Shown one piece after another: positions 8,529 through 55,282 of a DNA stretch of 55,681 nt; within the stretch, counting starts at the first letter, position 1; each line of letters begins with the position of its first letter. Source of the DNA: Microbacterium terregens. GTDB lineage: Bacteria; Pseudomonadota; Alphaproteobacteria; Sphingomonadales; Sphingomonadaceae. The notes beneath the pieces were generated by a model. The model saw only the letters and a program-made list of their open reading frames with translations, ran no database searches and was not told the DNA's origin. The stretch spans positions 866,709-922,389 of the forward strand of contig NZ_BSEX01000006.1 in assembly GCF_027922045.1 (NCBI RefSeq). Reading direction: 5' to 3'. The translations under genes and the position numbers were made by a program.

Positions 8529-8553
8529 CGCGAACCCGTCTTTGCGCCCGCCC

Positions 8554-8638
8554 CTTGTTCCGTCTCCGCAACGACCCTTAGGGTGTGCCGGGGAGCCAAG
8601 CCGCCGCTCAGCGGTTCTCCAGGACGGAAAGCAGCAAG
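8554..8638 (+). ncRNA. Possible structured leader RNA upstream of the YbhB-like gene
   Basis: The segment folds by eye into a closed three-way junction. The outer stem pairs CTTG (8554-8557) with CAAG (8635-8638) and TTCCGTC (8558-8564) with GACGGAA (8623-8629), leaving AGCAG unpaired on one side. Inside are ACCC-TTA-GGGT (8574-8584) and GGGGAGCC (8590-8597) paired with GGTTCTCC (8613-8620). The 3' strand touches the AGAGGAA ribosome site of the gene starting at 8649, so folding could gate its translation. I do not recognise it as a known riboswitch class. Confidence 0.45.
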
Positions 8639-8648
8639 AGGAACTGGG

Positions 8649-39268: not shown

Positions 39269-40152
39269 TGGTCGTGCTTTCCTGTGGCGGCGAGGACGGC
39301 ATCGGCCTTGGCGGCCAGCCCCTCGGGAAGCGGAGAAAGGCCGAGGCTGCCCAGCCGCTGCTGCCAGTCGGCGGTCGCGGCCGCCATGGCACCCGACGGG
39401 CCGAGCGCGGCGGCGGTGGCGGCGGATTCGCGCATCTCGGCGGCGCGGCGCAGCCCGTGGACGAGCATGCGGTCGAGGTTGTAGTCCCCCCGCGTCCGCC
39501 AGTCCCAGCCGGGGAAGCTCGCGTCGAGCGAGGCGAGCACTTCCTCCTCGATCCCGGCAGCGCGCGCGGACAGCAGGCATTCGGCGGTCAGCGCCTCCAG
39601 CCCCTTGATGACGATCGAGCGCAGCATCTTGATCGCGCTTGCGGCCCCGACGTCGCCGGGAACCACGCGCGCCCGGAAGCCGATCCGCTCCAGCAGCGCC
39701 CGGCCCGCCTCGGCATGGGGTCCCGCCACCAGCAGCGGTACCGACAGCAGCGCCGGGCGCACCGGCGCCATCACCGCCACGTCGACATAGCGGCCGCCGG
39801 CCGCCTCGATCGCGGCTGCCGCGGCGCGCTTGGTCTCGGGCGCGACGCTGTTCATGTCGAAGAACAGGCTTCCGGCCATGAGCCCCGCCGCCGCATCGCT
39901 CGCCGCCGCAAGCGCCTGGTCCGCAGTGACCAGGCTCAGCACCGCCCCGGCGCCACGGAGCGCGTCGGCGGCGCGGTCGCAGCCGGTGACCTGCCAGCGC
40001 GCATAGTCGGCGCGCTTGGCGACGGCGGCCCCGCCTTCGGTCTTGATGTCAAAGGCGCGGATCGCGCCCGGCGGCTGCGCGCCCCAGCCTTCGCAAAAGG
40101 CCTGCGCGGCTTCGCCGAAGCCGATGAACGCCAGGGATACTGCTCGGTCCAT
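39265..40152 (-). CDS. NAD(P)-dependent dehydrogenase, DUF1932/beta-hydroxyacid type
   Basis: 295-aa protein with an N-terminal Rossmann domain (LAFIGFGEAAQAFCEGW), typical of the 6-phosphogluconate/3-hydroxyisobutyrate dehydrogenase family, and a DUF1932-type C-terminal helical domain (IKMLRSIVIKGLEALTAECLLSARAAGIEEEVLASLDASFPGWDW). FFDMNSVAPETKR and YVDVAVMAPV are also family marks. It overlaps ligJ by four bases. In classic pathways a dehydrogenase (LigC) oxidises 4-carboxy-2-hydroxymuconate semialdehyde just before LigI, but LigC is of the Gfo/Idh/MocA type, so this protein is not an orthologue. It might serve a related oxidation or reduction; its substrate is unknown. Confidence 0.82.
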   Translation of the reverse strand: MDRAVSLAFIGFGEAAQAFCEGWGAQPPGAIRAFDIKTEGGAAVAKRADYARWQVTGCDRAADALRGAGAVLSLVTADQALAAASDAAAGLMAGSLFFDMNSVAPETKRAAAAAIEAAGGRYVDVAVMAPVRPALLSVPLLVAGPHAEAGRALLERIGFRARVVPGDVGAASAIKMLRSIVIKGLEALTAECLLSARAAGIEEEVLASLDASFPGWDWRTRGDYNLDRMLVHGLRRAAEMRESAATAAALGPSGAMAAATADWQQRLGSLGLSPLPEGLAAKADAVLAATGKHDQ

Positions 40153-40180
40153 GGTCCCGAGCTAGTGCGCCGGCACGTCC

Positions 40181-41431
40181 TCAGGCATATCGGAACGGTT
40201 GGCTCTCCATTGCTTTTCCGGAAGTCCAGTCCGCGCACACCTCCCGGAACAGTGCCACGAACGTGCTTTGCAGCTGCGTCGGGTGCCAGTCGTCGCGGTG
40301 GGTGAGGCCGATGCTCCGGCGCAGCGTCTCGCCCGCGCCGGCGATCTCGACCAGCAGCCCCGCGCGCTGCTCGAACAGGAACTGGTCGCGCGACATCAGC
40401 GTCAGCCAGTCGTCCTCCAGCATCAGTCCCCGCAGCACCAGCACCGATCCGCACTCGATCCGCAGCCGCGGCGGCTCCAGCCCGCGATCGACGAACATCC
40501 GCTCCCAGCGCGCGCGCACCGGCGCCCCTTCCGCGGCGATGACCCACGGGAAATCCAATAGCCGTTCGAATGCGAAGCCGGGCTCGGCGCGTAGCGGGTG
40601 CCCGGCGCGCCCGACGATCACCGGATCGTCCAGGAACAGCGGCGCCTGCACCACGTCGCCCACCGGCAGCGGATCGCGCATCGCCCCGACCAGCAGGTCC
40701 AGGTCGCCCTGCCGAAGCGCCCCCAGCATCTCCAGATACGGCCCCTCGACCACGTTCACCGACGCACCCGGGTAGGCGCGGGCGAAGCGCGCCAGGGTCT
40801 GCGGCAGGAGGATCGCGCGGGCGAGCGGCATGGTGCCGACGGTGACGCGTCCCGCCCCCTGGTTGCGCAGCGCCTCCAGCTCATCCACGCCCGCCTGCAG
40901 CTCGGCACGCGCCAGCCTGGCGAAGCGCAGCAGCCGCACCGCCGCCCGGGTCGGCTGCACCGTGCGCCCCTGCCGGGTGAGCAGCGGCACGCCCAGCAGC
41001 TGCTCCAGTTCCCGCGCGGCACGATGCAGCGCCGGCTGCGACATGCCGGTGCGGGTGGAGGCGAGCGCGAAGCTCCCCGCCTCGTCCACCGCGATCAGCG
41101 CGCGCAGCTGGCCGAGCGTGATCCGCCGTTCCACGCGCGGCAGCGGCGGCAGGCGCGCGCCCCGCCGCACGCGATGTCCGCCGCGCGCCACATAGCCGAG
41201 CGCCCGCTCGATGCGCGCGGTCATCAGCCGCCCGGCCTCGGTGGGGCTCACGCCGCCGGGCTGGCGGTCGAACAATGCGTGGCCCAGCTGCGCCTCGACC
41301 TTGGCCACCGCCTGGGTCAGCGCCGGCTGCGACAGGTTCATGGCCTGGGACGCGGCGCTGATGCTTCCCAGCCGCGCCGCCTGCGCCACCGCATCCAGGT
41401 GCCGCAGGTTCATCTGAGCGAATGCGATCAT
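40181..41431 (-). CDS. LysR-family regulator with two tandem DNA-binding domains
   Basis: 416-aa LysR-type regulator, about 110 residues longer than usual. The excess is a second winged helix: HTH 1 covers residues about 7-65 ([32 protein letters not shown]) and HTH 2 about 104-165 ([45 protein letters not shown]). A normal effector-binding domain follows from about 185 ([17 protein letters not shown]). It is divergent from ligK across 104 bases, the standard LysR arrangement, and also lies 28 bases upstream of the dehydrogenase-ligJ-ligI group. It very likely controls the protocatechuate/gallate genes. The ATG at 41,431 is preferred over GTG 41,440 or ATG 41,413. Confidence 0.9.
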
Positions 41432-41535
41432 GTGACACACTTCAGCACAGCTTATGGCTCGTGCGCAAATCCACGTCCCCGATTCCGGAACGGCGGCCTA
41501 GAGAGCGGCGCAACGAGTTTGTCGAAGGAGCCAGG

Positions 41536-42207
41536 ATGCCCAGCGTCGTCACCACCGTAGAACGCGCAGATCCGGCCGTCGTCGCCGGTCTCGCCCATGC
41601 CGGCGTCGCCACCGTGCACGAGGCGCAGGGCCGCATCGGCCTGCTCGGCAGCCGCCTGCGCCCCATCTATTCCGGCGCGCGCATCGCCGGCTGTGCGGTC
41701 ACCGTGTCGGTGCCGCCGGGCGACAATTGGATGATGCACGTCGCCATCGAGCAAGTAAAAGAAGGCGATATCCTGGTGGTGGCACCGACCTCCCCGTGCG
41801 AGGACGGCTATTTCGGTGACCTGCTCGCCACCTCCGCCCTGGCGCGCGGCTGCCGCGGGCTGGTGATCGACGCAGGCGTGCGCGACGTGCGCGACCTGAC
41901 CGAGATGGGCTTCCCCGTCTGGTCGCGCGCGATCTCGGCGCAGGGCACGGTCAAGGAGACGCTGGGATCGGTCAACGTGCCGATCGTCTGCGCCGGCGAG
42001 CTGGTGAACGCGGGCGACGTGATCGTCGCCGACGACGACGGCGTCTGCGTGGTCCGCCGCACCGATGCCGCGGCGGTGCTCGAGAAGGCCCAGGCGCGCG
42101 AGGCCAAGGAAGCCGAGAAGCGCGAGCGGCTGGCCAAGGGCGAACTCGGCCTCGACATCTATGCGATGCGCGAGCGGCTGGAACAGAAGGGCCTTCGCTA
42201 TGTCTGA
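41536..42207 (+). CDS. ligK: 4-Carboxy-4-hydroxy-2-oxoadipate aldolase LigK
   Basis: 223-aa class II aldolase of the RraA-like fold. It splits 4-carboxy-4-hydroxy-2-oxoadipate into pyruvate and oxaloacetate, the last step of protocatechuate 4,5-cleavage and gallate breakdown. Landmarks are [70 protein letters not shown] (the Arg-Asp pair binds metal and substrate) and [17 protein letters not shown] stands before the ATG at 41,536. The stop lies within the ligU gene, giving an eight-base overlap. Confidence 0.93.
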
Positions 42208-43255
42208 GGGCATTCGCGCGATGTGGATGCGCGGCGGCACGTCCAAGGGCGGCTTCTTCCTCGCCGAAGACCTGCCCGCGGAGCCGGCCGCACGCGACGC
42301 CTTCCTGCTGCGCGCCTTCGGCTCGCCCGATCCCCGCCAGATCGACGGCATGGGCGGCGCCGACCCGCTGACGTCCAAGGTCGCGGTCGTCTCGCGCTCG
42401 GCGCACGAAGGCGCCGACGTCGACTATCTGTTCCTGCAGGTGTTCGTCGACCAGACGATCGTCACCGATGCGCAGAACTGCGGCAACATGCTCGCCGGCG
42501 TCGGCCCGTTCGCGATCGAGCGCGGGCTGGTCGAGGCGCAGGACGGCGAGACCCCGGTCTCGATCTTCATGGTCAACACCGGCAAGCTCGCCACCGCGAC
42601 CGTCCGCACCCCCGGCGGCACCGTCACCTATGAAGGCGACGCCCGCATCGACGGCGTGCCCGGCACCGCCGCGCCGGTGCCGCTCGCCTTTGCCGACATC
42701 GCCGGCTCCAGCTGCGGCGCGCTGCTCCCCACCGGCAACGCCGTGGACGTGATCGGGGGCGTGGAGACCACGCTGATCGACAACGGCATGCCCTGCGTGG
42801 TGCTGCGGGCCGCCGATGTCGGCATCACCGGCTATGAGGATCGCGAGACCCTCGACGCCGACGAGTCGCTCAAGGCGCGGATCGAGGCGATCCGGCTGGA
42901 GGCTGGGCCGATGATGAACCTGGGCGATGTCGCCGACCAATCGGTGCCCAAGATGATGCTGGTCGCCGCCCCGCGACACGGCGGCGCCATCAGCGTGCGC
43001 TCCTTCATCCCGCACCGCTGCCACGCCTCGATCGGCGTGCTGGGAGCCGTCAGCGTCGCCACCGCCTGCCTGATCGACGGATCGCCCGCGCACGCGCTGG
43101 CGGTGGTGCCGGAGGGCCGCTCCAAGACGCTCGACGTCGAACATCCGACCGGTGCCACCGGCTGCGTGATCGACGTGGACGAGCGCGGCACGATCACCGG
43201 CGCGGCCATGCTGCGCACCGCCCGCAAATTGTTCGACGGCATGTTGTTCGGCTGA
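42200..43255 (+). CDS. 4-Oxalomesaconate isomerase/tautomerase (LigU/GalD, PrpF family)
   Basis: 351-aa protein of the PrpF fold. It begins [20 protein letters not shown], the PrpF signature, with [39 protein letters not shown] and a late [20 protein letters not shown]. In this setting it corresponds to GalD of Pseudomonas (oxalomesaconate tautomerase) or LigU of Sphingobium (double-bond isomerase preparing the LigJ substrate). The two differ in reaction detail, and I cannot choose between them by motif, so no symbol is given. It overlaps ligK by eight bases and precedes the dicarboxylate carrier by 35 bases. Confidence 0.88.
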
Positions 43256-43290
43256 ACCGCCGCCCGCCGCCCCAACGAGAGATAAAAAGA

Positions 43291-44610
43291 ATGACAAGCA
43301 TAGGAGAGACGACGAAGCGGGCCGGACGGTTCGGCATCTTGGGCCAGCTGTGGTTCCAGGTGCTCGCCGGCACGGTGATCGGCATCCTGCTCGGCCACTT
43401 CGCACCCGGCACCGCCGTCGCGATGAAGCCGTTCGGCGACGCCTTCATCAAGCTGATCCGCATGATGATCGGCCCGATCATCTTCGTGACGGTCGTCCAC
43501 GGCATCGCCGGCATGAACGACATGACCGCCGTGGGCCGGGTCGCGCTGAAGTCGATCCTCTATTTCGAGGTGATCACGATCATCGCGCTGGTCTTTGGCC
43601 TGGTCGCGGTCAACCTGTGGCAGCCGGGCGCGGGCATGAACATCGACGCCGCCGCGATCGATACCGCCTCGATCCAGGGCTATGTCGCCTCCGCCCACGA
43701 CCAGTCGATCACCAGCTATCTGATGGCGATCATCCCCGACACCTTCGTGAGCGCGCTGACCGAGGCGCATGTGCTGCAGGTGCTGTTCGTGGCGGTGCTG
43801 TTCGGCATCGCCATCGCCTCCATCGGCGAGCGCGCGAAGCCCGTCATCGACGTGATCGACAGCGCGTCGCAGGGCTTCTTCCGGATCATCGGCTACATCA
43901 TGTATTTCGCGCCGCTGGGCGCGTTCGGCGCGATCGCCTTCACCGTCGGCCAGTTCGGCACCGCCTCGCTGCTGTCGCTGGGCGAGCTGATCCTGGAGTT
44001 CTTCGTCGTCTGCGCCCTGTTCACCGCGGTGGTGCTGGGCGGCGTCGCCTGGTGGTGCGGCGTCAGCCTGTGGCGCCTGCTCGGCTATCTGTGGGACGAG
44101 ATCGTCGTGGTCGCCGCCACCACCTCGACCGAGACGGTGCTGCCGCGCCTCATCCAGAAGATGCAGAAGGTCGGCTGCGAGGAAAGCGTCGTCGGCTTCG
44201 TGATCCCCGCGGGCTATTCGTTCAACCTCGATGGCACCTGCCTCTATCTCACCACCGTCGCGGTGTTCCTGGCGCAGGCGACCAACACCCACCTGACCTT
44301 CGGCCACGAGCTGGCGCTGATCGCGGTGCTGCTGCTCACGTCCAAGGGCGCGGCGGGCATCGCCGGTGCGGCCTTCGTGGTGCTGGCCGCGACACTCAAC
44401 ACCACGGGCGTCATCCCGGTCGCCAGCATCGCGCTGATCCTGGGCATCCACCGCATCCTCGCCGAAGGGCTCACCTTCGTGAACCTGATCGGCAATGCGC
44501 TCGCCACCGTCGTGATCGCCAAGTGGGAGGGCAAGCTCGACGAACGCACCCTCGCCGCCACCATCGGCACGCGCAAGCTGCGCGCCAAGCACAACATCGC
44601 CGCCGCCTGA
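43291..44610 (+). CDS. dctA: DctA-type dicarboxylate/proton symporter
   Basis: 439-aa DAACS-family secondary transporter of the inner membrane. Eight membrane helices and two re-entrant loops are expected. Visible marks are FGDAFIKLIRMMIGPIIFVTVVHGI, the serine/threonine-rich hairpin TTSTETVLPRLIQKMQKVGC, and FSFNLDGT-type SFNLDGTCLYLTTVAVFLAQAT, the substrate and cation site. It resembles DctA, which imports succinate, fumarate and malate. Placed right after ligK-ligU, it may import a tricarboxylic aromatic breakdown product or a lignin-derived acid, but that is inference. Confidence 0.9.
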   Translation: MTSIGETTKRAGRFGILGQLWFQVLAGTVIGILLGHFAPGTAVAMKPFGDAFIKLIRMMIGPIIFVTVVHGIAGMNDMTAVGRVALKSILYFEVITIIALVFGLVAVNLWQPGAGMNIDAAAIDTASIQGYVASAHDQSITSYLMAIIPDTFVSALTEAHVLQVLFVAVLFGIAIASIGERAKPVIDVIDSASQGFFRIIGYIMYFAPLGAFGAIAFTVGQFGTASLLSLGELILEFFVVCALFTAVVLGGVAWWCGVSLWRLLGYLWDEIVVVAATTSTETVLPRLIQKMQKVGCEESVVGFVIPAGYSFNLDGTCLYLTTVAVFLAQATNTHLTFGHELALIAVLLLTSKGAAGIAGAAFVVLAATLNTTGVIPVASIALILGIHRILAEGLTFVNLIGNALATVVIAKWEGKLDERTLAATIGTRKLRAKHNIAAA

Positions 44611-44671
44611 TCCGGCTGCGACGACCATGACAACCGGCCGCGGCGCGAACGCGGCCGGACAGGAGATTTCG

Positions 44672-46156
44672 ATGCCCGTTCTGACCACCACCGCAGCCGC
44701 GCTGCTGCTCGCCGGACAGGCGCAGGCGGCGCCGCTGCCGCCCGACACGCGCGACGTGCCCGCCACCGCCACCCCCACCACCAGCGCACCGCCGCTGACC
44801 GGGGAGGGCGAGCGCGAGAGCGGCCGCGATGCCGCCGCCGCCTTCTCCCCGGGCGCAACCCAAGCCGCCCCCGCCGACCAGAGCAAGGCGCCCACCGGCT
44901 TCGCGCGGTTCCAGCGGAACAACGCGATCGGCAAGGCGCTACGCTCGCTCAACGACCAGGGCGTCGATCTCACGCTCGACTTCGTCGGCAACGTCGCCGC
45001 CAATCCGATCGGCGGCGTGCGCCACGGCAGCGCGGAATCGCACTGGGTGATGGCCGCTGCCGACATCGATCTCGAAAAGGCGCTCGGCTGGTCCGACACC
45101 AAGCTCCACGTCCAGGGCGCCTGGTTCACCGGCGACAGCCTGGGACGCGATTCGATCGGAAACTCGATCAGCTTCCAGCAGACGTGGCGGCCCGTCTCCG
45201 GCCCTCGCCTCACCCAGCTCAACATCGAGCATGATTTCGGCAAGCTCAACCTGATGGTGGGGCGCGCGGCGGTGAACAGCTATTTCAACAACTCGCCGCT
45301 CAACTGCGCGTTCATGAGCAACACCAGCTGCCTCACCGCCTATGGCGCGATCAGCGACATCGGCATCACCGCCTATCCGAACTCGTCCTGGGCGGCCAAG
45401 GCGCGCTATGCGATCGACGACCGCTGGTACGTCCAGACCGGCGCCTTCGAATACAACAACGACCTCAACGCCAAGGGCAAGGGCGGGCTCGACTTCTCGC
45501 TCGGCAAGGGAACGGGCGTGCTGATCCCCGGCGAAGTCGGCTACCAGACCAGCTTCGCGCAGGAGCGCCTGCCGCGTCGCTACCGCCTCGGCTTCTATCT
45601 CAACACCGACGGCGGCCAGAGCCCCTATTTTGACGCGAACGGCAATTCCGCGGCGCTGAGCGGCCTTCCCCGCGCCGGGCGCGGCGGCAACCGGCTGGGC
45701 CTGTATGCGATGGCGGACCAGACGGTGGCGCGCGCGCAAGGCGCCAGCAAGCGCAACCTGGCGCTGTTCGGCCGCTTCTTCCTCAACGCCGGCAACGTCC
45801 AGTCGATCGACTGGTTCGCCTCGGCCGGGTTCGTGAAGACCGGGACGTTCAAGGGCCGCGACAACGACACGATCGGCCTGCTCGTCACCAACACGCATTT
45901 CAGCGACCAGCAGATCGCCTATCTCCGCGACCTGCGCGCCAAGGCGGGCGGCACCGGATCGCCCGAGGCGAACGAGATCATCACCGAACTGAACTATGGC
46001 TGGGCGGCGCTGCCCGGGCTCCGGATCATGCCCAACGTCCAGTACGTCATCAATCCGGACCCGATCTATGCGACCAGCCGCAAGACCGACATTCCGGATG
46101 CCGTGGTGCTGGGCCTGCGCGTCGACGTGCACCTGGCGCAGCTGTTCGGAGGCTAG
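44672..46156 (+). CDS. OprB-type carbohydrate-selective porin
   Basis: 494-aa outer-membrane beta-barrel. A signal peptide (MPVLTTTAAALLLAGQAQA) and a Pro/Thr-rich linker of about 50 residues precede the OprB domain, which starts near LNDQGVDLTLDFVGNVAANPIGG. LHVQGAWFTGDSLGRDSIGNSISFQQTW, LTQLNIEHDF, GFYLNTDGGQSP and a late ELNYGWAALPGLRIMPNVQYVINPDP follow, with the aromatic-rich end of barrel proteins. AGGAGA stands before the ATG at 44,672. Sixty bases separate it from dctA, so it may be the outer-membrane partner of that carrier; the name OprB implies sugars, but the substrate is open. Confidence 0.88.
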   Translation: MPVLTTTAAALLLAGQAQAAPLPPDTRDVPATATPTTSAPPLTGEGERESGRDAAAAFSPGATQAAPADQSKAPTGFARFQRNNAIGKALRSLNDQGVDLTLDFVGNVAANPIGGVRHGSAESHWVMAAADIDLEKALGWSDTKLHVQGAWFTGDSLGRDSIGNSISFQQTWRPVSGPRLTQLNIEHDFGKLNLMVGRAAVNSYFNNSPLNCAFMSNTSCLTAYGAISDIGITAYPNSSWAAKARYAIDDRWYVQTGAFEYNNDLNAKGKGGLDFSLGKGTGVLIPGEVGYQTSFAQERLPRRYRLGFYLNTDGGQSPYFDANGNSAALSGLPRAGRGGNRLGLYAMADQTVARAQGASKRNLALFGRFFLNAGNVQSIDWFASAGFVKTGTFKGRDNDTIGLLVTNTHFSDQQIAYLRDLRAKAGGTGSPEANEIITELNYGWAALPGLRIMPNVQYVINPDPIYATSRKTDIPDAVVLGLRVDVHLAQLFGG

Positions 46157-46216
46157 GCCCCGCCTGGGGCGGACCCGACCCGCAGCAGCACGCGCAAAGC
46201 CTCTCGCGGTCAGGCG

Positions 46217-46248
46217 CAGCGCCCCGGGGGCAATCCCCCGGGGCGCTG
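46217..46248. terminator. Bidirectional hairpin terminator
   Basis: A perfect 14-base-pair stem, CAGCGCCCCGGGGG against CCCCCGGGGCGCTG, with a four-base loop CAAT. It lies between the convergent porin and GMC genes, four bases from the GMC stop. There is no T-run, but the stem is the strongest hairpin I see in a spacer of this window and should stop or stabilise transcripts from both sides. Confidence 0.75.
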
Positions 46249-46252
46249 CCGG

Positions 46253-47926
46253 TTACGCCCGCAGCTGCTTCACCGCATGGTCGGCCGCACGCGCGGTCAT
46301 CGCCATGTAGGTCAGCGACGGGTTGACGCAGGACGCCGACGCCATCTGCGCGCCGTCCGTCACATAGAGGTTGGACGCGTCGTGCGCCTGGTTCCAGCCG
46401 TTCAACACCGAGGTGCGGGGGTCGGCGCCCATGCGCGCGCCGCCCATCTCGTGGATGGCGTCGCCGGGCACATGCTCGCCCTCCCAGCTGCGCACGTTGA
46501 GGAGGCCGGCGCCCTTCAGCATCGCCTCGCCCTGCACCCGCGCGTCCGCCATCATCTTGAGCTCGTTCTCGCGGAAGCGCACGTCGAAGCGCATCAGCGG
46601 GATCCCGAACCGGTCCACCTTGCTGGCGTGGAGCGAGACGCGGTTGTCCTTGTACGGCAGGCATTCGCCGAACGCGCCCATGCTGAACTTCCACGGCGCA
46701 TAGCGGCGCAGGCCCTGCTTCATCGACGCGCCGAAGCCGACCGGCGGTGACGGGTCGCGGCTGGCGCTGCCCTGATAGCCATAGCCCCGCCTGAAGCCCA
46801 CGCCCTCCTCGCCGCCGATGTTGCGGAAACGCGGGATATAGACGCCGCCCGGACGCCGGCCATATTCGATCAAATCGGTCATGCCGGGGATCTCGCCCGA
46901 CACGCCCACGCGGAAGATATGGTCCATCACATAGCGGCCCAGCGTCCCGCTGCTGTCGAAGTGGCTGCGCTCGCTTCCCGGCGCGCGCGAGTTCATCAGG
47001 ATCTGGACCGACGCCATCGCCGATGCGCAGACGAACACCAGATCCGCCGACACCGTCTGCGCTTGGCCCGTCTTGGCATCGACATAGCGCACGCCCGTCA
47101 CCCGCTTGCGCGCGGAATCATATTCGACGTTGGTGACCACCGCGTCCGACTGGAGCGTCAGCCGCCCGGTCGCGCGCGCCGCCGGCAGCGTCACCGCCTG
47201 GGTCGAGAAATAGGCCCCAAACGAGCAGCCGTTGCTGCACTGGTTGCGCATCTGGCACTTGGTGCGGTTCTGCTCGGGCTTGTCCTCGGTCAGGTTCGAC
47301 AGGCGGGTGTGGATCAGCTTGCGGCCCGGGAACTTCGTCTCCAGCCGCTGCTTCAGCCACTGCTCCGCGACGTTCATCGGCATCGGCGGCTGGAACTCGC
47401 TGTCCGGCAGATAGGGCAGGTTCTCGCGCGAGCCGGATACGCCGACATACTTCTCGACATAGCTGTACCAGGGGGCGACGTCGTCATAACCGATCGGCCA
47501 GGCGCCATCGATGCCGTCGCGCTTGTTCGCCTCGAAGTCCTCGGGCGCCCAGCGGAAGCTCCACCGGCCCCAGATCAGCGACTTGCCGCCCACCGCGCCC
47601 GGGCGGATCCAGTAGAACTTGTCCCCCTCGTCATAGGCATAGGGGTTCTGCCGGTCGTCGTTGTAGAAGCGCTGGTTGCTGGGCTGCACATAGCCGTGGC
47701 GCGCGATGAAGTAATTGCTGTCCATCACCGGCTTGGGCATGATGTTGCGCGCCGGCACCTCGAACGCGGGCTTGCCGTCGTACGGATAGCCCTCGCCATG
47801 CTCGACCATGACGCCCCGGTCGAGCATCAGGACGCGCAGCCCCTTTTCGGTCAGTTCCTTGGCGGCGAAGCCTCCGCTCACGCCCGATCCGATGACGATC
47901 GCGTCGAACCTGTTGGTCGAAGCCAT
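46253..47926 (-). CDS. GMC-family FAD-dependent sugar/glycoside dehydrogenase, large subunit
   Basis: 557-aa flavoprotein. The FAD motif GSGVSGG is at residues 13-19, and the catalytic His and Asn of GMC enzymes are H492 (IHEMGGARMG) and N535 (NPSLTYMAM). C224, C230 and C234 form C-X5-C-X3-C, the spacing that holds a 3Fe-4S cluster in FAD glucose dehydrogenase and glucoside 3-dehydrogenase. There is no signal peptide; such subunits reach the periplasm bound to a Tat-exported small subunit, here probably the protein at 48,792-49,361. Electrons would pass to the cytochrome c at 50,334. Oxidation at sugar C3 (glucoside 3-dehydrogenase, LacA-like) is the best guess; gluconate 2-dehydrogenase is the alternative. 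Confidence 0.88.
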   Translation of the reverse strand: MASTNRFDAIVIGSGVSGGFAAKELTEKGLRVLMLDRGVMVEHGEGYPYDGKPAFEVPARNIMPKPVMDSNYFIARHGYVQPSNQRFYNDDRQNPYAYDEGDKFYWIRPGAVGGKSLIWGRWSFRWAPEDFEANKRDGIDGAWPIGYDDVAPWYSYVEKYVGVSGSRENLPYLPDSEFQPPMPMNVAEQWLKQRLETKFPGRKLIHTRLSNLTEDKPEQNRTKCQMRNQCSNGCSFGAYFSTQAVTLPAARATGRLTLQSDAVVTNVEYDSARKRVTGVRYVDAKTGQAQTVSADLVFVCASAMASVQILMNSRAPGSERSHFDSSGTLGRYVMDHIFRVGVSGEIPGMTDLIEYGRRPGGVYIPRFRNIGGEEGVGFRRGYGYQGSASRDPSPPVGFGASMKQGLRRYAPWKFSMGAFGECLPYKDNRVSLHASKVDRFGIPLMRFDVRFRENELKMMADARVQGEAMLKGAGLLNVRSWEGEHVPGDAIHEMGGARMGADPRTSVLNGWNQAHDASNLYVTDGAQMASASCVNPSLTYMAMTARAADHAVKQLRA

Positions 47927-47952
47927 GATGTTGTTCCCCTGCCCGTACGTGC

Positions 47953-48795
47953 TCAGAACCGCAGCGCGCGGAGCGTCTTGAAGCTGGTGGTGATGTCCGG
48001 AAGATAGGGCGCGGGCGCCTCGTCGTTCTCGACATAGAAGTGGCGGACCCCGGCGCTTCCCTTCAGGCGGAACAGCGCGGCGAAGTCGGTCTTGCCCTGG
48101 CCCACGGCGGTCATGCTGCGGTCGGCGCGCATGTCCTTGACGTGATAGGCATAGATGCGGCGGTTCAGCCGCTCGATCAGCCCGGCCACGTCCTCGCCCG
48201 CGTGTGCTGCCCAGTAGAGGTCGAGCTCCACCTGCACCAGCGACGGGTCGGTCTCCTCGATCAGCCGGTCGAACAGGCTCTTGCCGCCCGGCTTCACCGT
48301 GAATTCGAAGTCGTGGTTGTGGTAGGCAAAGCCCAGCCCCGCCTTCTTCAACTCGGCGCCGAAGCGCGCGATGTTGGGCAGCGCCGCCTTCCACCCGGCT
48401 TCTGTGCGGTGCTGGTCCGTCATGTACGGCAGCACCACCGTGTCGGCGCCCAAGGTCTTCGCCATGGTCACCGATCGCTCGAACTGGCCGAGCAGCGCGT
48501 CATAGCCGATGTGCACCGACGGCGCGCGCAGCCCCAGCCGGTCCATCGTCCGGCGCAGCAGCGCATGATCCATCGCGTCATAGCCGCCGCCGCCGAACTC
48601 GACCTCGCGATAGCCGATGCGCGCCACCTGCCCCAGCGTCGCCACCGGGTCCTTCTGGAAGAGCTCGCGCACGGTGTAGAGCTGGAGCCCCACCGCCGGG
48701 ATCTGGGCTGCATGGGCGGCCGGGATGATCCGGTTCGACAGGGCGATGGCCGCGGCGCCCCCGGCGCCCGCGAGCAGGGTACGGCGGCTGATCAT
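47953..48795 (-). CDS. Tat-exported TIM-barrel sugar isomerase/epimerase-like protein
   Basis: 280-aa protein of the AP-endonuclease-2/xylose-isomerase-like fold. The N-terminus MISRRTLLAGAGGAAAIALS is a twin-arginine signal (R4, R5), so it folds in the cytoplasm and is exported. The barrel shows IGYREVEFGG, GLRAPSVHIGYD, FAYHNHDFEF, LVQVELDLYWAAHAGED and IYAYHVKDM, giving the usual Glu/His/Asp metal set. An exported member of this fold does not act on sugar phosphates; a keto-sugar or keto-glycoside from the GMC enzyme is a likely substrate. It overlaps the subunit-3 gene by four bases and precedes GMC by 26 bases. Confidence 0.85.
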   Translation of the reverse strand: MISRRTLLAGAGGAAAIALSNRIIPAAHAAQIPAVGLQLYTVRELFQKDPVATLGQVARIGYREVEFGGGGYDAMDHALLRRTMDRLGLRAPSVHIGYDALLGQFERSVTMAKTLGADTVVLPYMTDQHRTEAGWKAALPNIARFGAELKKAGLGFAYHNHDFEFTVKPGGKSLFDRLIEETDPSLVQVELDLYWAAHAGEDVAGLIERLNRRIYAYHVKDMRADRSMTAVGQGKTDFAALFRLKGSAGVRHFYVENDEAPAPYLPDITTSFKTLRALRF

Positions 48796-49361
48796 GCGCT
48801 GTAGACCTTGTTGACTTGGGAATAGGGGAAGGCGCCGTTGTATTCGCCCGGCACCGGCAGATATTCGCGCTCCTGGGTGATGCCGATCTCCGACGTGTAA
48901 TAGCCGGTGATCACCATCTGGCGCATCGCTTCGAAGAAGTCCTTGCCGCCCGGGATCTGGCCGTTCATCGCCAGCGTCAGCAGCGCATCCTGCTGCTCGG
49001 GCGTCGCCTTGGCGGCGGAGACCTTATAGTCCTTCAGGCTGCGGGCTTCGACCGCCTCCAGCCCGGCCAGGATCGGCTTGCGATCGTCCGGCACGCCCCA
49101 ATCGGCGAGCAGCTTTTCGATGAACATCGGCACGCCCGCTGCGATCGCGCCCGGCGTGTCGGTGGTCGGGATGATCCGCTCGCTCAGCGCCGTCACCAGC
49201 GCGCGCTGGTCGGGTGTGAAGACGGCCGTGCTCGGCGGGCCGTCGGAGATCACCGGCACCCGCGATGCCTGGGCCGCACCGGCCGCGCGCGCGATCGGCG
49301 CGAACAGTCCCGCCCCGAACATCGTGACGACGCCGGCAAGCGCCGTTCTGCGATCGATCAC
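48792..49361 (-). CDS. Gluconate 2-dehydrogenase subunit 3 family protein (Tat hitchhiker subunit)
   Basis: 189-aa small subunit. A Tat signal (IDRRTALAGVVTMFGAGLFAPIARA, R4/R5) precedes the subunit-3 domain: FTPDQRALVTALSERIIPTTDTPGAIAAGVP, then GKDFFEAMRQMVITGYYTSEIG and a conserved end EYNGAFPYSQ. In FAD glucose, glucoside and fructose dehydrogenases this subunit carries the export signal for the GMC subunit and helps it fold. The GTG start at 49,361 has GGAGGAGAGG just upstream. Its stop overlaps the TIM-barrel start by four bases (ATGA). Confidence 0.9.
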   Translation of the reverse strand: MIDRRTALAGVVTMFGAGLFAPIARAAGAAQASRVPVISDGPPSTAVFTPDQRALVTALSERIIPTTDTPGAIAAGVPMFIEKLLADWGVPDDRKPILAGLEAVEARSLKDYKVSAAKATPEQQDALLTLAMNGQIPGGKDFFEAMRQMVITGYYTSEIGITQEREYLPVPGEYNGAFPYSQVNKVYSA

Positions 49362-49405
49362 TTGGCCTCTCCTCCCGTGGTGCGAAGCATTCGTGCCTCC
49401 CCTTC

Positions 49406-50320
49406 TTATTGTGCGTCGATTTCCCGATAGGCGGCGATCAGCCGGTCCTCGCCGGCGCGGCCCTTGACCGAATTGCCGTGCTCCATGCCGATCACCCCGG
49501 CATAGCGGCGCTGGCGCAGCCACCGGACGATGTTGGCGTAATGGATCTCGCCGGTGCCGGGCTCGTTGCGCCCGGGATTGTCGCCGAACTGCATATAGCC
49601 GATCTCGCTCCAGCAGGCGTCCATCACCGGGATCAGGTTCCCGGACTGGATCTGCTCGTGGTAGAGGTCGGCCAGGATCTTCACGCCCGGGCTGTTGGCG
49701 CCGCGCGCCACGGCATAGCCCTGGGCGATGCTCTGCATGTAGACGCCGGGATGGTTGGTGCGCGTGTTGAGCGGCTCCATTACCATCGCGATGCCGTGGG
49801 GTGCGACGATGTCGCCGGCGCGGCGCATGACGTCGATCACCCGCGCGGTCTGGATCTCCACCGGCACCTTGGGGTCCATGAAGCCGGTGACCACCGTCAT
49901 CCGCGTCGCATTCAGGCGCTTGGCGACGTCGATGGCGCTGCGGACGTCGGCCAGGAACGCCTCGCGCTCGGCGCCGTCGTTGGCACCCAGCAGCGGCCGC
50001 GACTGCGACCATTTCGGCATGCTGGCGACGAACACGCCCATCGCCATGCCGCGCTGCTGCAGCGCCTTGGCCATGCGCTGCTGTTCCGCGACCGGCCGGC
50101 TGCGCGCCTCATTGTCTTCCCAGGCGGTGAAGCCCTGGTCGGCGGCATAGGCGATCTGCTCGAGCAGGCCGCCGCGGCTGGCGAAGCTGCCCTCGTGCGG
50201 CGCATAGCCGAGCGAAAAGCGGGCGGCGTTGGAGCCGCCGCCGCCCTGCGCCAGGCCGGCGCTCGCCGCGAGCGGCGCGACCGCGCCGGCAGCCAGCACG
50301 GTGCGACGCGAGACCGTCAT
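49406..50320 (-). CDS. Tat-exported hydroxypyruvate isomerase-like TIM-barrel protein
   Basis: 304-aa protein. The N-terminus MTVSRRTVLAAGAVAPLAASAGLA is a Tat signal (R5, R6). The mature part is a TIM barrel of the hydroxypyruvate isomerase/IolE type: QIAYAADQGFTAWEDNEA, IAMVMEPLNTRTNHPG (first metal-binding Glu), ILADLYHEQIQSGN, IGYMQFGDNPGRNEPGTGEIHY and VIGMEHGNS (last Glu). The metal ligands look intact, so it is probably an active enzyme in the periplasm. It is a different subfamily from the exported barrel at 47,953-48,795. It lies 13 bases downstream of the cytochrome gene. Confidence 0.84.
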   Translation of the reverse strand: MTVSRRTVLAAGAVAPLAASAGLAQGGGGSNAARFSLGYAPHEGSFASRGGLLEQIAYAADQGFTAWEDNEARSRPVAEQQRMAKALQQRGMAMGVFVASMPKWSQSRPLLGANDGAEREAFLADVRSAIDVAKRLNATRMTVVTGFMDPKVPVEIQTARVIDVMRRAGDIVAPHGIAMVMEPLNTRTNHPGVYMQSIAQGYAVARGANSPGVKILADLYHEQIQSGNLIPVMDACWSEIGYMQFGDNPGRNEPGTGEIHYANIVRWLRQRRYAGVIGMEHGNSVKGRAGEDRLIAAYREIDAQ

Positions 50321-50333
50321 GCCCCCCGCCCGA

Positions 50334-50705
50334 TCATTTGCCGCCCTGCGCCTTCAGGAACGCGATGATCGCCTTGCGCTTGGCGGCGTCGGCCATGCCG
50401 ATCGGCATGCGCGTGCCCGGCACCTTCTTGGTCGGCGCGGCCAGGAACTGGTCCAGCGTCGCCTCGTCCCAGCGCAGCTTCGACGCCTTCATGGCGTTGG
50501 AATAGTTGAAGCCCGGCACCGCGGCCGCGGGCCGGCCGACCACGCCGTTCAGGTTCGGCCCGACGCCGTTGCGGCCACCCTTGTCGACCGTGTGGCAGGC
50601 CTTGCACGCGGCAAAGGCCGGCGGCGGCGCGGTCTGCGCGACGGCCGGTGCCGCGGTGACGGCCAGCATCGCTGCCGCCGCCCCCAGGCTGATGATACGC
50701 TTCAT
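50334..50705 (-). CDS. Class I cytochrome c
   Basis: 123-aa monohaem cytochrome. A Sec signal peptide (MKRIISLGAAAAMLAVTAAPAVA) is followed by the haem site CKACH at residues 34-38, then GGRNGVGPNLNGVVGRPAA and the distal Met in GTRMPIGM. The small size and GVGPNLNGVVGR pattern are those of soluble periplasmic cytochromes of the c2/c550 class. It is the likely electron acceptor of the GMC dehydrogenase, delivering to a terminal oxidase. GGGAGAG precedes the ATG, which overlaps the upstream oxidoreductase stop by four bases. Confidence 0.92.
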   Translation of the reverse strand: MKRIISLGAAAAMLAVTAAPAVAQTAPPPAFAACKACHTVDKGGRNGVGPNLNGVVGRPAAAVPGFNYSNAMKASKLRWDEATLDQFLAAPTKKVPGTRMPIGMADAAKRKAIIAFLKAQGGK

Positions 50706-51847
50706 ACACTCTCTCCCGGATCGATGCTGGTCCACTTCCGGTCCGAGGCCGCATTGGCGACCACGGCCTCGACGAATTTCATGGTGCGAAGCCCGTCGCC
50801 GACCCCGGGGAACCACCGCTCCCCTTCGCCACGGATCGCCGCCGCGAAGCCACGGTAGAGGTTGGCGAACGCCTCGACATAGCCCTCGGGATGCCCCGCG
50901 GGCGTGCGCAGCAGCCCGCTCGCACCGTCGCTCAAGCCCGGCCCGCCCGCGCGCAGGATCTCCGCCGGCCGGTCGAGCCAGCGCAGCGTCAGCGTGTTGG
51001 GCTCCATCTGCGCCCATTCCAGCCCGCCGCGCTCGCCATGGATGCGCAGCTTCAGGCCATTTTCCTCGCCGGCCGCGACCTGGCTCGCCTTCAGCGTGCC
51101 GCGCGCGCCGCCCTCGAAGCGCAGCAGCGCGCTCACGTCGTCGTCGAGCCGGCGCCCCGGCACATGGATGGTCAGGTCCGCCGCCACCGCCTCGGCGCGC
51201 AGGCCGGAGACATGCTCGGCGAGTTGGAACGCATGGGTGGCGATGTCGCCCAGGCAGCCGCCGATCCCGGCCCGCGCCGGGTCGGTGCGCCACTCGGCCT
51301 GCTTGTTGCCGGCCTCGTCGATCGGCGCGCTCAGCCAGCCCTGGAGATATTCGACCTGCACCAGACGGATCGCGCCCAGGTCGCCGCGCGCGATGCGCGC
51401 CCGCGCCTCCTCGACCAGCGCATAGCCGCTGTAGGTGAAGGCCAGCGCGAACGTCCGCCCGCTCGCCTCGGCCGCCGCCGCGATCGCCTCCGCCTCGGCG
51501 ACGCTCATCGCCATCGGCTTTTCGCAGAACACGTGGAAGCCCACCTCGAGCGCGGCGATCGCCATCGGCGCGTGGAGATGGTTCGGCGTTACGATCGCCA
51601 GCGCATCGATGCGCACTTCCGCCGGCAGCGCACGCTCGCCTGCCAGCAGGGCATCGAGCGAGTCATAGACGCGCGCGGGATCGAGCCCCAGTTGCTCGCC
51701 GGTGCGGGTGTTGCGCCCCGCATCGGTGCTGAACGCCCCTGCGGTCAGCCGCCAGTCGCCATCCAGCGCGGCGGCCATGCGATGCACGGCGCCGATGAAC
51801 GCGCCCTCGCCGCCACCCACCATGCCGAGCCGGAGCGGCTGCCGCAT
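50702..51847 (-). CDS. Gfo/Idh/MocA family oxidoreductase
   Basis: 381-aa NAD(P)-dependent dehydrogenase without a signal peptide, so cytoplasmic. The Rossmann domain begins LRLGMVGGGEGAFIGAVHRMAAALDG and has ALAIVTPNHLHAPMAIAALEVGFHVFCEKPMAMS, with the EKP catalytic lysine. The C-terminal sheet domain includes GGCLGDIATHAFQLAEH (the G-D-x-x-x-H catalytic block). In sugar clusters such enzymes reduce 3-keto sugars back to sugars or interconvert inositols; the former fits the GMC neighbour. It overlaps the cytochrome start by four bases and the upstream isomerase stop by one. Confidence 0.9.
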   Translation of the reverse strand: MRQPLRLGMVGGGEGAFIGAVHRMAAALDGDWRLTAGAFSTDAGRNTRTGEQLGLDPARVYDSLDALLAGERALPAEVRIDALAIVTPNHLHAPMAIAALEVGFHVFCEKPMAMSVAEAEAIAAAAEASGRTFALAFTYSGYALVEEARARIARGDLGAIRLVQVEYLQGWLSAPIDEAGNKQAEWRTDPARAGIGGCLGDIATHAFQLAEHVSGLRAEAVAADLTIHVPGRRLDDDVSALLRFEGGARGTLKASQVAAGEENGLKLRIHGERGGLEWAQMEPNTLTLRWLDRPAEILRAGGPGLSDGASGLLRTPAGHPEGYVEAFANLYRGFAAAIRGEGERWFPGVGDGLRTMKFVEAVVANAASDRKWTSIDPGESV

Positions 51848-52911
51848 CACTCGCCGCCTTCCTTCAGGCCCAGCAGCGATCGGATCGCGGCCCGGTCGAC
51901 GCCGCTCGCAGCGAAATCGTCGAACGGCCGCTCGGTCACGTGGATGATATGGTCGCGGATGAACGGCGCCCCCTCGCGCGCGCCATCCTCGGAACGCTTG
52001 AGCGCGCATTCCCACTCCAGCACCGCCCAACCTTTGTAGCCATATTGGGCAAGCTTGCTGAACACGCCGACGAAGTCGACCTGGCCGTCCCCGGTCGAGC
52101 GGAAGCGCCCGGCCCGGTTCACCCAGCTCTCATAGCCGCCATAGACGCCTGAGCGACCGGTCGGGTTGAACTCGGCATCCTTCACATGGAAGCACGCAAT
52201 CCGGTCGTGATAGCGGTCGATGAAGTCGAGATAGTCGAGCTGCTGCAGCACATAGTGCGACGGATCGAACAGGATGCGCGCACGCGGGTGCTCGCCCACC
52301 GCCGCCAGGAACCGCTCCCACGACGCGCCGTCGTGAATGTCCTCGCCGGCGTGGATCTCGAACGCGCAGTCCACGCCCGCATCCTCGAACGCGTCCAGGA
52401 TCGGCGTCCAGCGCCGCGCCAGTTCGGCAAACGCCTCCTCGACCAGCCCCGCGGGCCGCTGCGGCCAGGGATAGACATAGGGCCAGGCCAGCGCGCCCGA
52501 GAAGGTCGCATGCGCCGACAGCCCCAGGTTGGCGCTCGCCTTGGCGGCGAGCGTCACCTGCTCGACTGCCCAGGCCTGGCGCGCCTCGGGCTTGCCGTGC
52601 ACCTCGGCCGGCGCGAAGCCGTCGAACAGCGCGTCATAGGCCGGGTGCACCGCCACCAACTGGCCCTGGAGATGCGTCGACAGTTCGGTCGGCTCGATCC
52701 CGAACCGCGCGAGCCGCCCGCGCAGCTCGTCGCAATAATCCTTGCTCTCGGCCGCGGTCTTCAGGTCGATCAGCCGCGGGTCGCACGGGATCTGCACCCC
52801 CACGAAGCCCAGGCCCGCGGCCCATTCGGCCAGCCCGTCCAGCGTATCGAACGGCGCGGTGTCGCCCAGGAACTGCGCCAGGAAGATGCCCGGCCCCTTC
52901 ATCGCGGTCAT
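51847..52911 (-). CDS. Cytoplasmic TIM-barrel sugar isomerase/epimerase
   Basis: 354-aa protein of the AP-endonuclease-2 sugar isomerase fold, longer than the exported pair and without a signal. Visible are FDTLDGLAEWAAGLGFVGVQIPCDP, IEPTELSTHLQGQL, ALAWPYVYPWPQRPAGLVEEAFAELA, CAFEIHAGEDIHDG, ILFDPSHYVLQQLDYLDFIDRYHDRIACFHVKDAEF and WAVLEWECALKRSEDG; the Glu, Asp, His and Glu ligands of the metal site are present. Proteins like this occur beside Gfo/Idh/MocA reductases in keto-sugar loci. It overlaps the MFS stop by four bases. Confidence 0.88.
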   Translation of the reverse strand: MTAMKGPGIFLAQFLGDTAPFDTLDGLAEWAAGLGFVGVQIPCDPRLIDLKTAAESKDYCDELRGRLARFGIEPTELSTHLQGQLVAVHPAYDALFDGFAPAEVHGKPEARQAWAVEQVTLAAKASANLGLSAHATFSGALAWPYVYPWPQRPAGLVEEAFAELARRWTPILDAFEDAGVDCAFEIHAGEDIHDGASWERFLAAVGEHPRARILFDPSHYVLQQLDYLDFIDRYHDRIACFHVKDAEFNPTGRSGVYGGYESWVNRAGRFRSTGDGQVDFVGVFSKLAQYGYKGWAVLEWECALKRSEDGAREGAPFIRDHIIHVTERPFDDFAASGVDRAAIRSLLGLKEGGE

Positions 52912-54158
52912 GCGCGCGCCTCTCCCTTGGTCTCGTCGCGGAAGCTGATCTGGAACAGGATCGCGACCACCGCCGCCGCGATCGCGGGGTACCACCACAT
53001 GTGCTGCCAGTCGGCGACGCTCGGCGTCTCGGGCAGCTGGGCATAGAGCAGGCCGCCGATCTGCGAGCCCAGCAACATGCCCACGCCATAGGTGAACAGC
53101 GTCAGCATCCCCTGCGCCTGCGCGTTGACGCCCTTGGGCGACGCGATGGTGCCGGTGTAGATCGCGCCCGCCACGAAGAAGAAGTCGTAGCACACGCCGT
53201 GCAGCGCCACGCCCAGGTAGATCGCCCACAGCGAGTCGCCCCCGTCGCCGATCGCGAACAGCGCATAGCGCACTGCCCAGGCGATCATGCCGACCAGCAG
53301 CAGCGGCTTCACCCCGAAGCGGCGATAGAGCCACGGCATGGAGAACATGAAGGCGAGCTCGGACATCTGCCCGATCGTCATGGTGCCGCCGACATTCTCG
53401 ATGCCCGCCGTGCCGATATAGGCGGAGGCATAGGCGTAATACATCGCCAGCGGGATCGAGATCAGCGTCGCTGCCGCGATGAAGATCAGGAACGAGCGCT
53501 GGCGCATCAGGCCGAACGCCTCGACGCACAGCACCTGCCGGATCACGCTCTCGTCACGCGGCGCGTCCGCCTCCACATTGGGAAGGGTGGCGCTGTAGAC
53601 CCCGAGCGCGATCGAGACGACGGCGGCGACGGTGAAGATCTGCGGGCTCGCCGACAGCCCCGCCCAGCCGATGATCAGCCCCGCCGCGATCCAGCCCAGC
53701 GTGCCGAACGCGCGCACGAACGGGAAACGATCGACCCGCTCGCCAAAGCTCTTGAGGGCGATGGTATTCGCCAGGCCGACGGTCGGCATGTAGAGGATCA
53801 TGTAGCCCAGCAGCAGCCAGACGAAGCTGTCGCCATGCTCGGGCGTCACCAGCGAGGGCAGCACGAACAGCAGCACGCCGCCCACCAGGTGCAGGATCAC
53901 CATCAGCATCTTGGGGCTGAAATAGCGCGCGGCCGCCATGCCGAGCAGGAACGAGCCCACGATCGAGGCGATCGGCCCCACCGAAAAGGCGTTGGCGATC
54001 AAATTGCCGATGCCCACGGTCTGCATCACCAGACCCAGGGTCACGTTCCACGCGCCCCAGACAAAGAACTGCATGAACATCAGGGCGCTCAGCCGCCCCG
54101 TCAGCATTCCCGACGCCGGGCGCACGTCACCCGTCAACGTCCCTTCGGCAGCGACCAT
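52908..54158 (-). CDS. MFS permease of the nucleoside:H+ symporter (NupG-like) type
   Basis: 416-aa inner-membrane carrier with about twelve helices. The N-terminal helix MFMQFFVWGAWNVTLGLVM is typical of the NHS family; later come VRAFGTLGWIAAGLIIGW, MSELAFMFSMPWLYRRFGVKPLLLVGM and GVCYDFFFVAGAIYT. NHS-type permeases found in sugar-oxidation loci of this kind probably carry sugars or glycosides rather than nucleosides; that is inferred from context. GGAGGGGA precedes the ATG at 54,158. It is the first gene of the eight-gene operon and faces the lacI-type gene across 122 bases with an operator. Confidence 0.88.
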   Translation of the reverse strand: MVAAEGTLTGDVRPASGMLTGRLSALMFMQFFVWGAWNVTLGLVMQTVGIGNLIANAFSVGPIASIVGSFLLGMAAARYFSPKMLMVILHLVGGVLLFVLPSLVTPEHGDSFVWLLLGYMILYMPTVGLANTIALKSFGERVDRFPFVRAFGTLGWIAAGLIIGWAGLSASPQIFTVAAVVSIALGVYSATLPNVEADAPRDESVIRQVLCVEAFGLMRQRSFLIFIAAATLISIPLAMYYAYASAYIGTAGIENVGGTMTIGQMSELAFMFSMPWLYRRFGVKPLLLVGMIAWAVRYALFAIGDGGDSLWAIYLGVALHGVCYDFFFVAGAIYTGTIASPKGVNAQAQGMLTLFTYGVGMLLGSQIGGLLYAQLPETPSVADWQHMWWYPAIAAAVVAILFQISFRDETKGEARA

Positions 54159-54220: not shown

Positions 54221-54236
54221 ATGTAAAGGATTACAT
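54221..54236. promoter_or_regulatory. LacI-family operator
   Basis: ATGTAAAGGATTACAT is an inverted repeat with perfect six-base arms (ATGTAA/TTACAT), 60 bases before the MFS start and 45 before the LacI-type gene. The even-spaced TGTAA...TTACA form is typical of LacI/GalR operators, and it is an AT-rich island in GC-rich DNA. It could let one repressor control both directions. Confidence 0.7.
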
Positions 54237-54280
54237 CACCCGCTATCGACAGCGTACGCGGCACGCGACATGAAGTGGGC

Positions 54281-55282
54281 ATGACGACGATCATCCAGGT
54301 CGCCGCCGTCGCCGGGGTGTCCACCGCCACGGTGTCGCGCGTGCTGAGCCAGCCTGCGCGCGTGGCCGAGCAGACGCGCCGGCGCGTGCTCGATGCCGTC
54401 GACGCGCTTGGCTACCAGCCAAATGTCGCCGCGCGCAGCCTGCGCACGCTGCGCGCGGCCAAGATCCTGCTGACCGTCCCGGACATCTCCAATCCCTTCT
54501 TCGCCAGCGTGATCCGTGGCGCGGAGGAGGCGGCGCGCGATGCCGGCTATTCGGTGGTGGTGGGCGACACCCGCCACGATCCGGAGGTGGAGGATCAATA
54601 CGCCGACATGCTCTCGCGCCGCGAGGTCGACGGGCTGGTGTTCCTCGGGCATCGCCTGCCGGCCAGCCTCGCCCCGCTGCTCGCCGACCAGGGACCGGCG
54701 GCGCCGATCGTCAACGGCTGCGAATACAGCCCCGACATCGGCGTGCCGAGCGTCCACATCGACAACGCGGCCGCCAGCAGCGACGCGATGGAGCATCTGA
54801 TCGCGCTCGGGCACCGCGATATCGGCGTGATCACCGGCCCGGCGATCAGCCCGATCAGCCGCGATCGCCTGACGGGCGCCCTGCGTGCCGCCGACCGCCA
54901 CGGCCTCGGCGACCAGTTGCAGCTGCGTGCCGGCGACTATTCCGCCGCCTCCGCCTTCCAGCGCGCGGGCGAACTGCTTGCGGGCGGGGTCACCGCGATC
55001 TTCTGCTTCAGCGACGAGATGGCGATGGGGGCAATGAGCGCGATCGCCCAGGCAGGGTTCTCCTGTCCCGGCCAGGTCTCGGTGATCGGCTTCGACGACC
55101 TGCCCCTCGCCCGCTTCTTTTCGCCGCCGCTCACCACCATCGCCCAGCCCAAGGGCCTGATCGGCCAGCGCGCCGTGGAGCTGCTGGTCGACATCCTGCG
55201 CGGCAGCACCCCCGCCCGCCGCCAGCTGACCCTCACCCACGACCTCGTCATCCGCAACAGCACCGCCCCCGCCCGCCGCTAG
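54281..55282 (+). CDS. LacI-family transcriptional regulator
   Basis: 333-aa regulator. The N-terminal helix-turn-helix (IIQVAAVAGVSTATVSRVLSQPARV) and hinge (NVAARSLRT) are followed by a periplasmic-binding-protein-like domain starting ILLTVPDISNPFFASVIRGAEEAA. Ligand-pocket segments are VNGCEYS, DIGVITGP and FCFSDEMAMGAMSAI, VIGFDDLPLARFFSPPLTTIAQP. It should repress the divergent operon until a sugar ligand binds. The ATG at 54,281 is preferred over a GTG at 54,275, since MTTIIQVA is the usual N-terminus. Confidence 0.92.
   Translation: MTTIIQVAAVAGVSTATVSRVLSQPARVAEQTRRRVLDAVDALGYQPNVAARSLRTLRAAKILLTVPDISNPFFASVIRGAEEAARDAGYSVVVGDTRHDPEVEDQYADMLSRREVDGLVFLGHRLPASLAPLLADQGPAAPIVNGCEYSPDIGVPSVHIDNAAASSDAMEHLIALGHRDIGVITGPAISPISRDRLTGALRAADRHGLGDQLQLRAGDYSAASAFQRAGELLAGGVTAIFCFSDEMAMGAMSAIAQAGFSCPGQVSVIGFDDLPLARFFSPPLTTIAQPKGLIGQRAVELLVDILRGSTPARRQLTLTHDLVIRNSTAPARR

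Follow-up and report, generated by a model that had tools for sequence, protein, structure and literature searches.

A sphingomonad operon with a predicted periplasmic and cytoplasmic division of the oxidation, elimination, hydration and reduction route for glycosides

Results

Operon architecture and predicted pathway

The 55,681-nucleotide stretch analyzed here (the window; contig NZ_BSEX01000006.1 of assembly GCF_027922045.1, recorded as Microbacterium terregens and placed by GTDB in the Sphingomonadaceae) encodes at 46253..54158, on the minus strand, what is probably (at roughly 0.8) a glycoside-utilization operon working by oxidation, elimination, hydration and reduction, with oxidation and cleavage in the periplasm and hydration and reduction in the cytoplasm. 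The match of its cytoplasmic TIM barrel (HYD) to a solved hydratase, together with the eliminase residues of an exported barrel (TIM-B), suggests that the operon is the Sphingomonas form of a known four-step route. The chemistry is already known from other bacteria; new are the predicted split across the membrane, a second exported barrel (TIM-A), and a clade of related loci that lacks subunit 3 of the dehydrogenase and has signal-less barrels. The reactions assigned to this organism, the compound taken up, the range of substrates and the function of TIM-A are all inferred from homology, conserved residues, predicted folds, a conserved gene neighborhood and predicted compartments.

The eight genes are co-directional, running from the permease (54158) to the stop codon of the flavoprotein (46253). 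Neighboring genes overlap by 1 or 4 bases at four junctions and are separated by 13, 44 and 26 bases at the other three, a spacing from which they likely form a single operon. A first-pass annotation, made by a model from the sequence and its open reading frames, had proposed this gene set, and all eight members were located as claimed. Every product matched Pfam above the curated cut-off, in gene order: an NHS-type permease of the major facilitator superfamily (MFS; 52908..54158; PF03825, E 6e-84), HYD (51847..52911; PF01261; no signal peptide seen), a Gfo/Idh/MocA oxidoreductase (50702..51847; PF01408/PF22725), a single-haem cytochrome c (CKACH; 50334..50705; PF00034), TIM-A (49406..50320; PF01261), subunit 3 (48792..49361, GTG start; PF13618, E 2e-36), TIM-B (47953..48795; PF01261) and a signal-less GMC flavoprotein (46253..47926; PF00732/PF05199), the predicted glycoside 3-dehydrogenase.

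The window thus holds the GMC protein, subunit 3 and cytochrome c together, by Pfam. The GMC protein carries the C-x5-C-x3-C motif (CQMRNQCSNGC) at residue 224, as do 79/79 of the GMC homologues examined, and its best match in the PDB was the large subunit of fructose dehydrogenase (E 4e-38). N termini resembling twin-arginine translocation (Tat) signals were found in TIM-A (MTVSRRTVLA), subunit 3 (VIDRRTALAG) and TIM-B (MISRRTLLAG); these calls are heuristic, made by eye and with a simple script rule, and a separate N-terminal check found a twin-arginine (RR) start followed by a hydrophobic stretch in 62/74 subunit 3 proteins. The operon therefore encodes a GMC-type dehydrogenase with an RR-signal subunit, and the signal-less flavoprotein with its cysteine motif and the three Tat signals are as the first-pass annotation had described them. 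Subunit 3 is thought to carry the GMC protein across the membrane. There the complex, with cytochrome c as predicted electron acceptor, would oxidize the C3 hydroxyl of a hexopyranoside, an activity that had likewise been proposed earlier and that homology supports.

In the second periplasmic step TIM-B, as a metal-dependent 3-keto-glycoside beta-eliminase, would free the aglycone or second sugar and leave a 2-hydroxy-3-keto-glycal. The permease would take up the small sugar product, HYD would add water to give 3-keto-glucose, and the Gfo/Idh enzyme would reduce this to glucose in the cytoplasm. The reductase match (PF01408) is an ordinary family match with a predicted substrate, and the gene co-occurs with that of HYD in most related loci. 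An NCBIfam model named for the BT_2158 glycoside 3-dehydrogenase family also matches the operon's Gfo protein; the BT_2158 family of Bacteroides thetaiotaomicron is Gfo-type, not GMC. A role of the operon in the use of a simple alcohol, inositol or gluconate, rather than of glycosides, is highly improbable: PF13618 is named after gluconate 2-dehydrogenase and weak matches to the IolE and IolG models were obtained, but these NCBIfam matches lie far under their cut-offs, and the names of the entries matched by HYD and TIM-B refer to 3-keto-glucoside chemistry.

The predicted hydratase and eliminase

HYD matched PDB 8RO4, a 2-hydroxy-3-keto-glucal hydratase, along its length (residues 2-349, E 3.8e-178). 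TIM-B belongs to the family of 3-keto-glycoside eliminases and lyases that includes AtOGE of Agrobacterium tumefaciens and the Bacteroidota enzymes AL1 and BT1, and its three nearest solved folds are all titled 3-keto-beta-glucopyranoside-1,2-lyase. The eight metal-ligand and catalytic residues named for AtOGE (excerpts of PMC10628242) are all kept in TIM-B (E66, H95, H159, H161, E190, D192, H218, E256); across 20 sequences seven of them were invariant and E190 nearly so. A hydratase function for TIM-B was rejected, as its profile fits the lyases far better (E 1e-73 for 8BVK and 1e-51 for 8TCT) than 8RO4 (1e-5).

Among the lyase, hydratase and epimerase routes that the first-pass annotation had considered for the exported barrels, the lyase is supported by homology for TIM-B, and the hydratase is matched by the cytoplasmic barrel instead. 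The broader proposal that the exported barrels convert or cleave the keto-glycoside in the periplasm is supported for TIM-B, as a member of the lyase family, and the suggested uptake followed by reduction inside the cell agrees with the route predicted here.

Conservation of the locus

TIM-A was used to scan named genomes, and the best 80 of 429 confirmed loci were kept, a set dominated by close relatives. Their titles were mostly Sphingomonas, Sphingobium and Novosphingobium, plus two Caulobacter and two Asticcacaulis; record titles were taken as given for L058 (Bacillus) and L106 (Microvirga; L and G numbers denote our loci and genomes). Within these 80 loci, Tat-flagged TIM-B, GMC and cytochrome genes were each found in 74, HYD and Gfo each in 73, an MFS permease in 71 (two permease types pooled, the second being that of S. 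parapaucimobilis, L044) and a LacI regulator in 64. Six loci were without GMC: L077 and L108 are truncated at contig ends, and the loci from Caulobacter and Asticcacaulis (two each) have TIM-A without the operon, with GMC genes elsewhere in those four genomes. No match was found on viral contigs.

The barrels follow the predicted compartment of the dehydrogenase

A survey starting from the dehydrogenase took 83 loci around GMC homologues, of which four fell below the GMC threshold and were dropped, leaving 79 to be counted. The sample is uneven, with 36/83 loci from one family search, and some of the loci counted had also gone into two of the profiles (A4 and A5), so that only the signal contrast is independent, not barrel presence. 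Where subunit 3 was present (66 loci), an eliminase-type barrel was encoded in 39, with a signal-like N terminus in 39/39, and an isomerase-type barrel in 17 loci (18 proteins, 17 with a signal). Where it was absent (13 loci), an eliminase-type barrel was found in 11 and an isomerase-type barrel in 13, with signals in 0/11 and 0/13, respectively. Both barrels follow the predicted compartment of the dehydrogenase, which fits action on its product. HYD and Gfo genes were found in 38 and 37 of the loci with subunit 3 and in 10 and 11 of those without it; NHS permease, cytochrome and DUF1080 genes occurred in 27, 20 and 45 of the former and in 0/13 each of the latter. PF13618 was absent genome-wide from two of the genomes with subunit-3-less loci (G257 and G312), and from the other eleven such loci within the stretches checked.

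Two genomes, G837 and G862 (L141/L165 and L146/L164), carry both arrangements, i.e. a subunit-3-less GMC locus with a signal-less isomerase-type barrel and a subunit 3 locus with an exported eliminase-type barrel. On a Croceicoccus plasmid (L046, 2978-4392), HYD, Gfo, subunit 3 and GMC genes are close to a TIM barrel gene with a DUF6379 gene behind it, two genes that together are reminiscent of C-glycoside eliminases.

TIM-A, an exported isomerase-like barrel

TIM-A shares the fold, the E-D-Q-E residues and the GRxEP motif of the hydroxypyruvate isomerase and 2-oxo-tetronate isomerase family. It differs in being Tat-exported and in falling below both NCBIfam cut-offs (129/353 bits for TIGR03234, cut-off 353.45, and 116/325 bits for the other). 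No published role for it was found in the open-access literature searched. TIM-A may isomerize or epimerize keto-glycosides, which is the most likely role for it; likewise exported, it would be the fifth enzyme of the route and would keep the keto sugar in the form that the eliminase accepts.

The third metal position holds Gln244 in TIM-A, as in 3NGF and in 1K77, which we take to be OtnI, and Gln is found there in 80/81 close homologues. Enzymes of the OtnI/hydroxypyruvate isomerase family carry out carbonyl-shift chemistry; YcjR of E. coli, a 3-keto-glucoside 4-epimerase, represents the type with His at this position, which TIM-A lacks, although this residue may not define the function. The phylogenetic trees, with their long branches and unresolved forks, serve only as hints; in them TIM-A fell with 3NGF and 1K77 rather than on the other side, at middling support (94/85). 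A C4 or C2 epimerase of 3-keto-hexosides like YcjR, converting 3-keto-galactosides or -mannosides to 3-keto-glucosides for the eliminase, is a doubtful but serious possibility, against which both the Gln residue and the tree position speak. We tentatively consider, as a rather unlikely proposal, that TIM-A defines an exported branch of the hydroxypyruvate isomerase fold and is a periplasmic ketol isomerase of keto-glycosides. Since 2-keto-glycosides can arise from 3-keto-glycosides without an enzyme, it would convert them back to the form cleaved by the eliminase. This would make a five-enzyme pathway in which oxidation, rescue and cleavage share the compartment of the dehydrogenase, and hydration and reduction are cytoplasmic.

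It is quite unlikely that TIM-A is a periplasmic hydratase of the 2-hydroxy-3-keto-glycal, with 3-keto-glucose imported rather than the glycal. TIM barrels of the same superfamily do hydrate (8RO4, and LgdB2 according to excerpts of PMC7676230), and such an enzyme could replace a lost DUF1080 protein if that family hydrates. However, signal-less HYD co-occurs with TIM-A in 73 of the 80 scanned loci, a TIM-A-type barrel is kept alongside HYD of the same compartment in 10/13 loci without subunit 3, and the residues of TIM-A fit isomerases.

In TIM-A-type proteins outside the named sphingomonad set (n = 26), the third metal position was His in 14 and Gln in 12, so the reaction may differ between the two exported groups. 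For such distant matches the Tat check was too loose, and the N termini themselves show RR in the loci named. In L007, which also has TIM-A, a second, divergent isomerase-type barrel (34%; 7876-8820) with an RR start directly adjoins the GMC gene, and on an Asticcacaulis contig (L129, 357-3462) TIM-A follows an open reading frame that by eye resembles an alpha-galactosidase.

Probable loss of DUF1080

The first-pass annotation had remarked that no DUF1080 protein is visible, and a tblastn search likewise gave no such gene anywhere in the window (best E 1.2). Little can be read from this absence, since most of the relatives examined carry the gene: in 74 complete related loci it adjoins TIM-A or subunit 3 in 58, lies elsewhere in the locus in four and is absent from 12, so that 62/74 have it. 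The corresponding site in the window is the 44-base gap between TIM-A and subunit 3 (49362..49405, minus strand). C-terminal remnants of DUF1080 are clear by eye in only 3/12 of the loci without the gene (L071, L106 and L115). Secondary loss in the lineage of the window is most likely, because the gene is present in most relatives (adjacent in 58/74) and remnants persist in three. A short frame in the window that ends in GEAK, like the DUF1080 protein of L102, was considered as a scar and rejected, because these bases probably form the ribosome-binding site for subunit 3. In the nearest genome (G001), PF06439 was matched three times on a different contig, close to genes of the Gfo type.

Regulator and neighboring genes

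A LacI-family regulator (54275..55282, plus strand; PF00356/PF13377) is encoded divergently from the operon, which it would regulate. A putative LacI-type operator, TGTAATCCTTTACA (54222..54235), lies between the two; it is the sole copy of TGTAAN4TTACA in the window, and such an operator was also found in the regulator-operon gap of 33/44 relatives with a divergent LacI gene. Directly after the GMC stop codon, a GC-rich inverted repeat without a T run (46212-46252) appears terminator-like by eye. An OprB carbohydrate-selective porin (44627-46156), convergent with the GMC gene, could possibly serve for outer-membrane entry; a close copy adjoins the operon only in L002 (G001) among 88 loci.

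Adjoining the operon, positions 37353-44610 hold an apparent set for 4,5-cleavage of protocatechuate or gallate, with two amidohydrolase-like open reading frames (LigI- and LigJ-like by eye) followed, by Pfam, by a DUF1932/NAD-binding protein, LysR, an RraA-type aldolase, PrpF and an SDF dicarboxylate symporter. These genes were dropped as a part of the system: within the stretches examined for the 88 loci they adjoin the operon only in L002, apart from a single match to PrpF where L100 ends.

Discussion

The predicted route has close counterparts. In A. tumefaciens it runs from GlycDH through OGE and HYD to Gfo (excerpts of PMC10628242), and shares with the window a GMC dehydrogenase with a Tat protein, an OGE-type eliminase with the same active-site residues, HYD and Gfo. 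AtOGE (8BVK, 259 residues) differs in that it aligns to the barrel from residue 6, so that a signal would not fit, provided that the construct is full length, and the enzyme looks cytoplasmic; no counterpart of TIM-A is noted in those excerpts. A Rhizobium relative (L042) has signal-less OGE together with HYD by ABC transporter genes, with no GMC gene in the stretch fetched. The Bacteroidota lyases AL1 and BT1 (PDB 8TCD, 8TCR, 8TCT) show 26% identity to TIM-B; they are reportedly the subject of a Nature paper of 2024. The levoglucosan pathway of Bacillus smithii (LgdA-B1-B2-C) likewise proceeds by oxidation, elimination, hydration and reduction, with elimination and hydration enzymes annotated as sugar phosphate isomerases, but its first step is NAD-dependent, and neither a GMC complex nor an exported barrel is mentioned in the excerpts of PMC7676230.

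The Caulobacter lac operon (LacABC with DUF1080; excerpts of PMC9007349) resembles that of the window in having a GMC protein with cytochrome c and subunit 3, a permease, a reductase and two TIM barrels. Unlike it, the operon described here includes TIM-A, and no DUF1080 gene is present in the window. Two Caulobacter sp. loci with NHS, cytochrome c, subunit 3 and DUF1080 encode an RR-signal TIM-B-type barrel 33% identical to that of the window, with Gfo at 52-53%, HYD at 70%, GMC at 47-48% and LacI at 57-59%; we infer that their NHS, TIM-B-type barrel, Gfo and HYD are the counterparts of those of C. crescentus. The Caulobacter lac genes are said to have been treated in a paper of 2010.

Several points weigh against the split pathway proposed here. 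The identity of TIM-B to AtOGE is 29%, and the evidence for AtHYD is itself termed preliminary (excerpts of PMC10628242). In Caulobacter, where a DUF1080 gene accompanies these genes, its product, a proposed 3'-ketolactose hydrolase, is important for the use of lactose (excerpts of PMC9007349). Cleavage in that case may thus depend on more than the TIM-B type, and DUF1080 is absent from the window. The NHS permease is missing from 5/32 loci with an exported eliminase, HYD and Gfo, and one isomerase-type protein (L026) is signal-less despite subunit 3 in its locus. Finally, the 13 subunit-3-less loci form one clade (GMC 76-100% identical to that of L035) and so provide one natural comparison rather than 13 independent events.

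The analysis assigns a concrete predicted pathway to an operon that is present in many Sphingomonadaceae and in which the barrels bear annotations as sugar phosphate or hydroxypyruvate isomerases. The predicted division across the membrane makes the transported intermediate directly testable, and TIM-A is singled out as an enzyme that recurs with the pathway. The related loci in which the dehydrogenase lacks its export subunit and both barrels lack signals offer a natural comparison.
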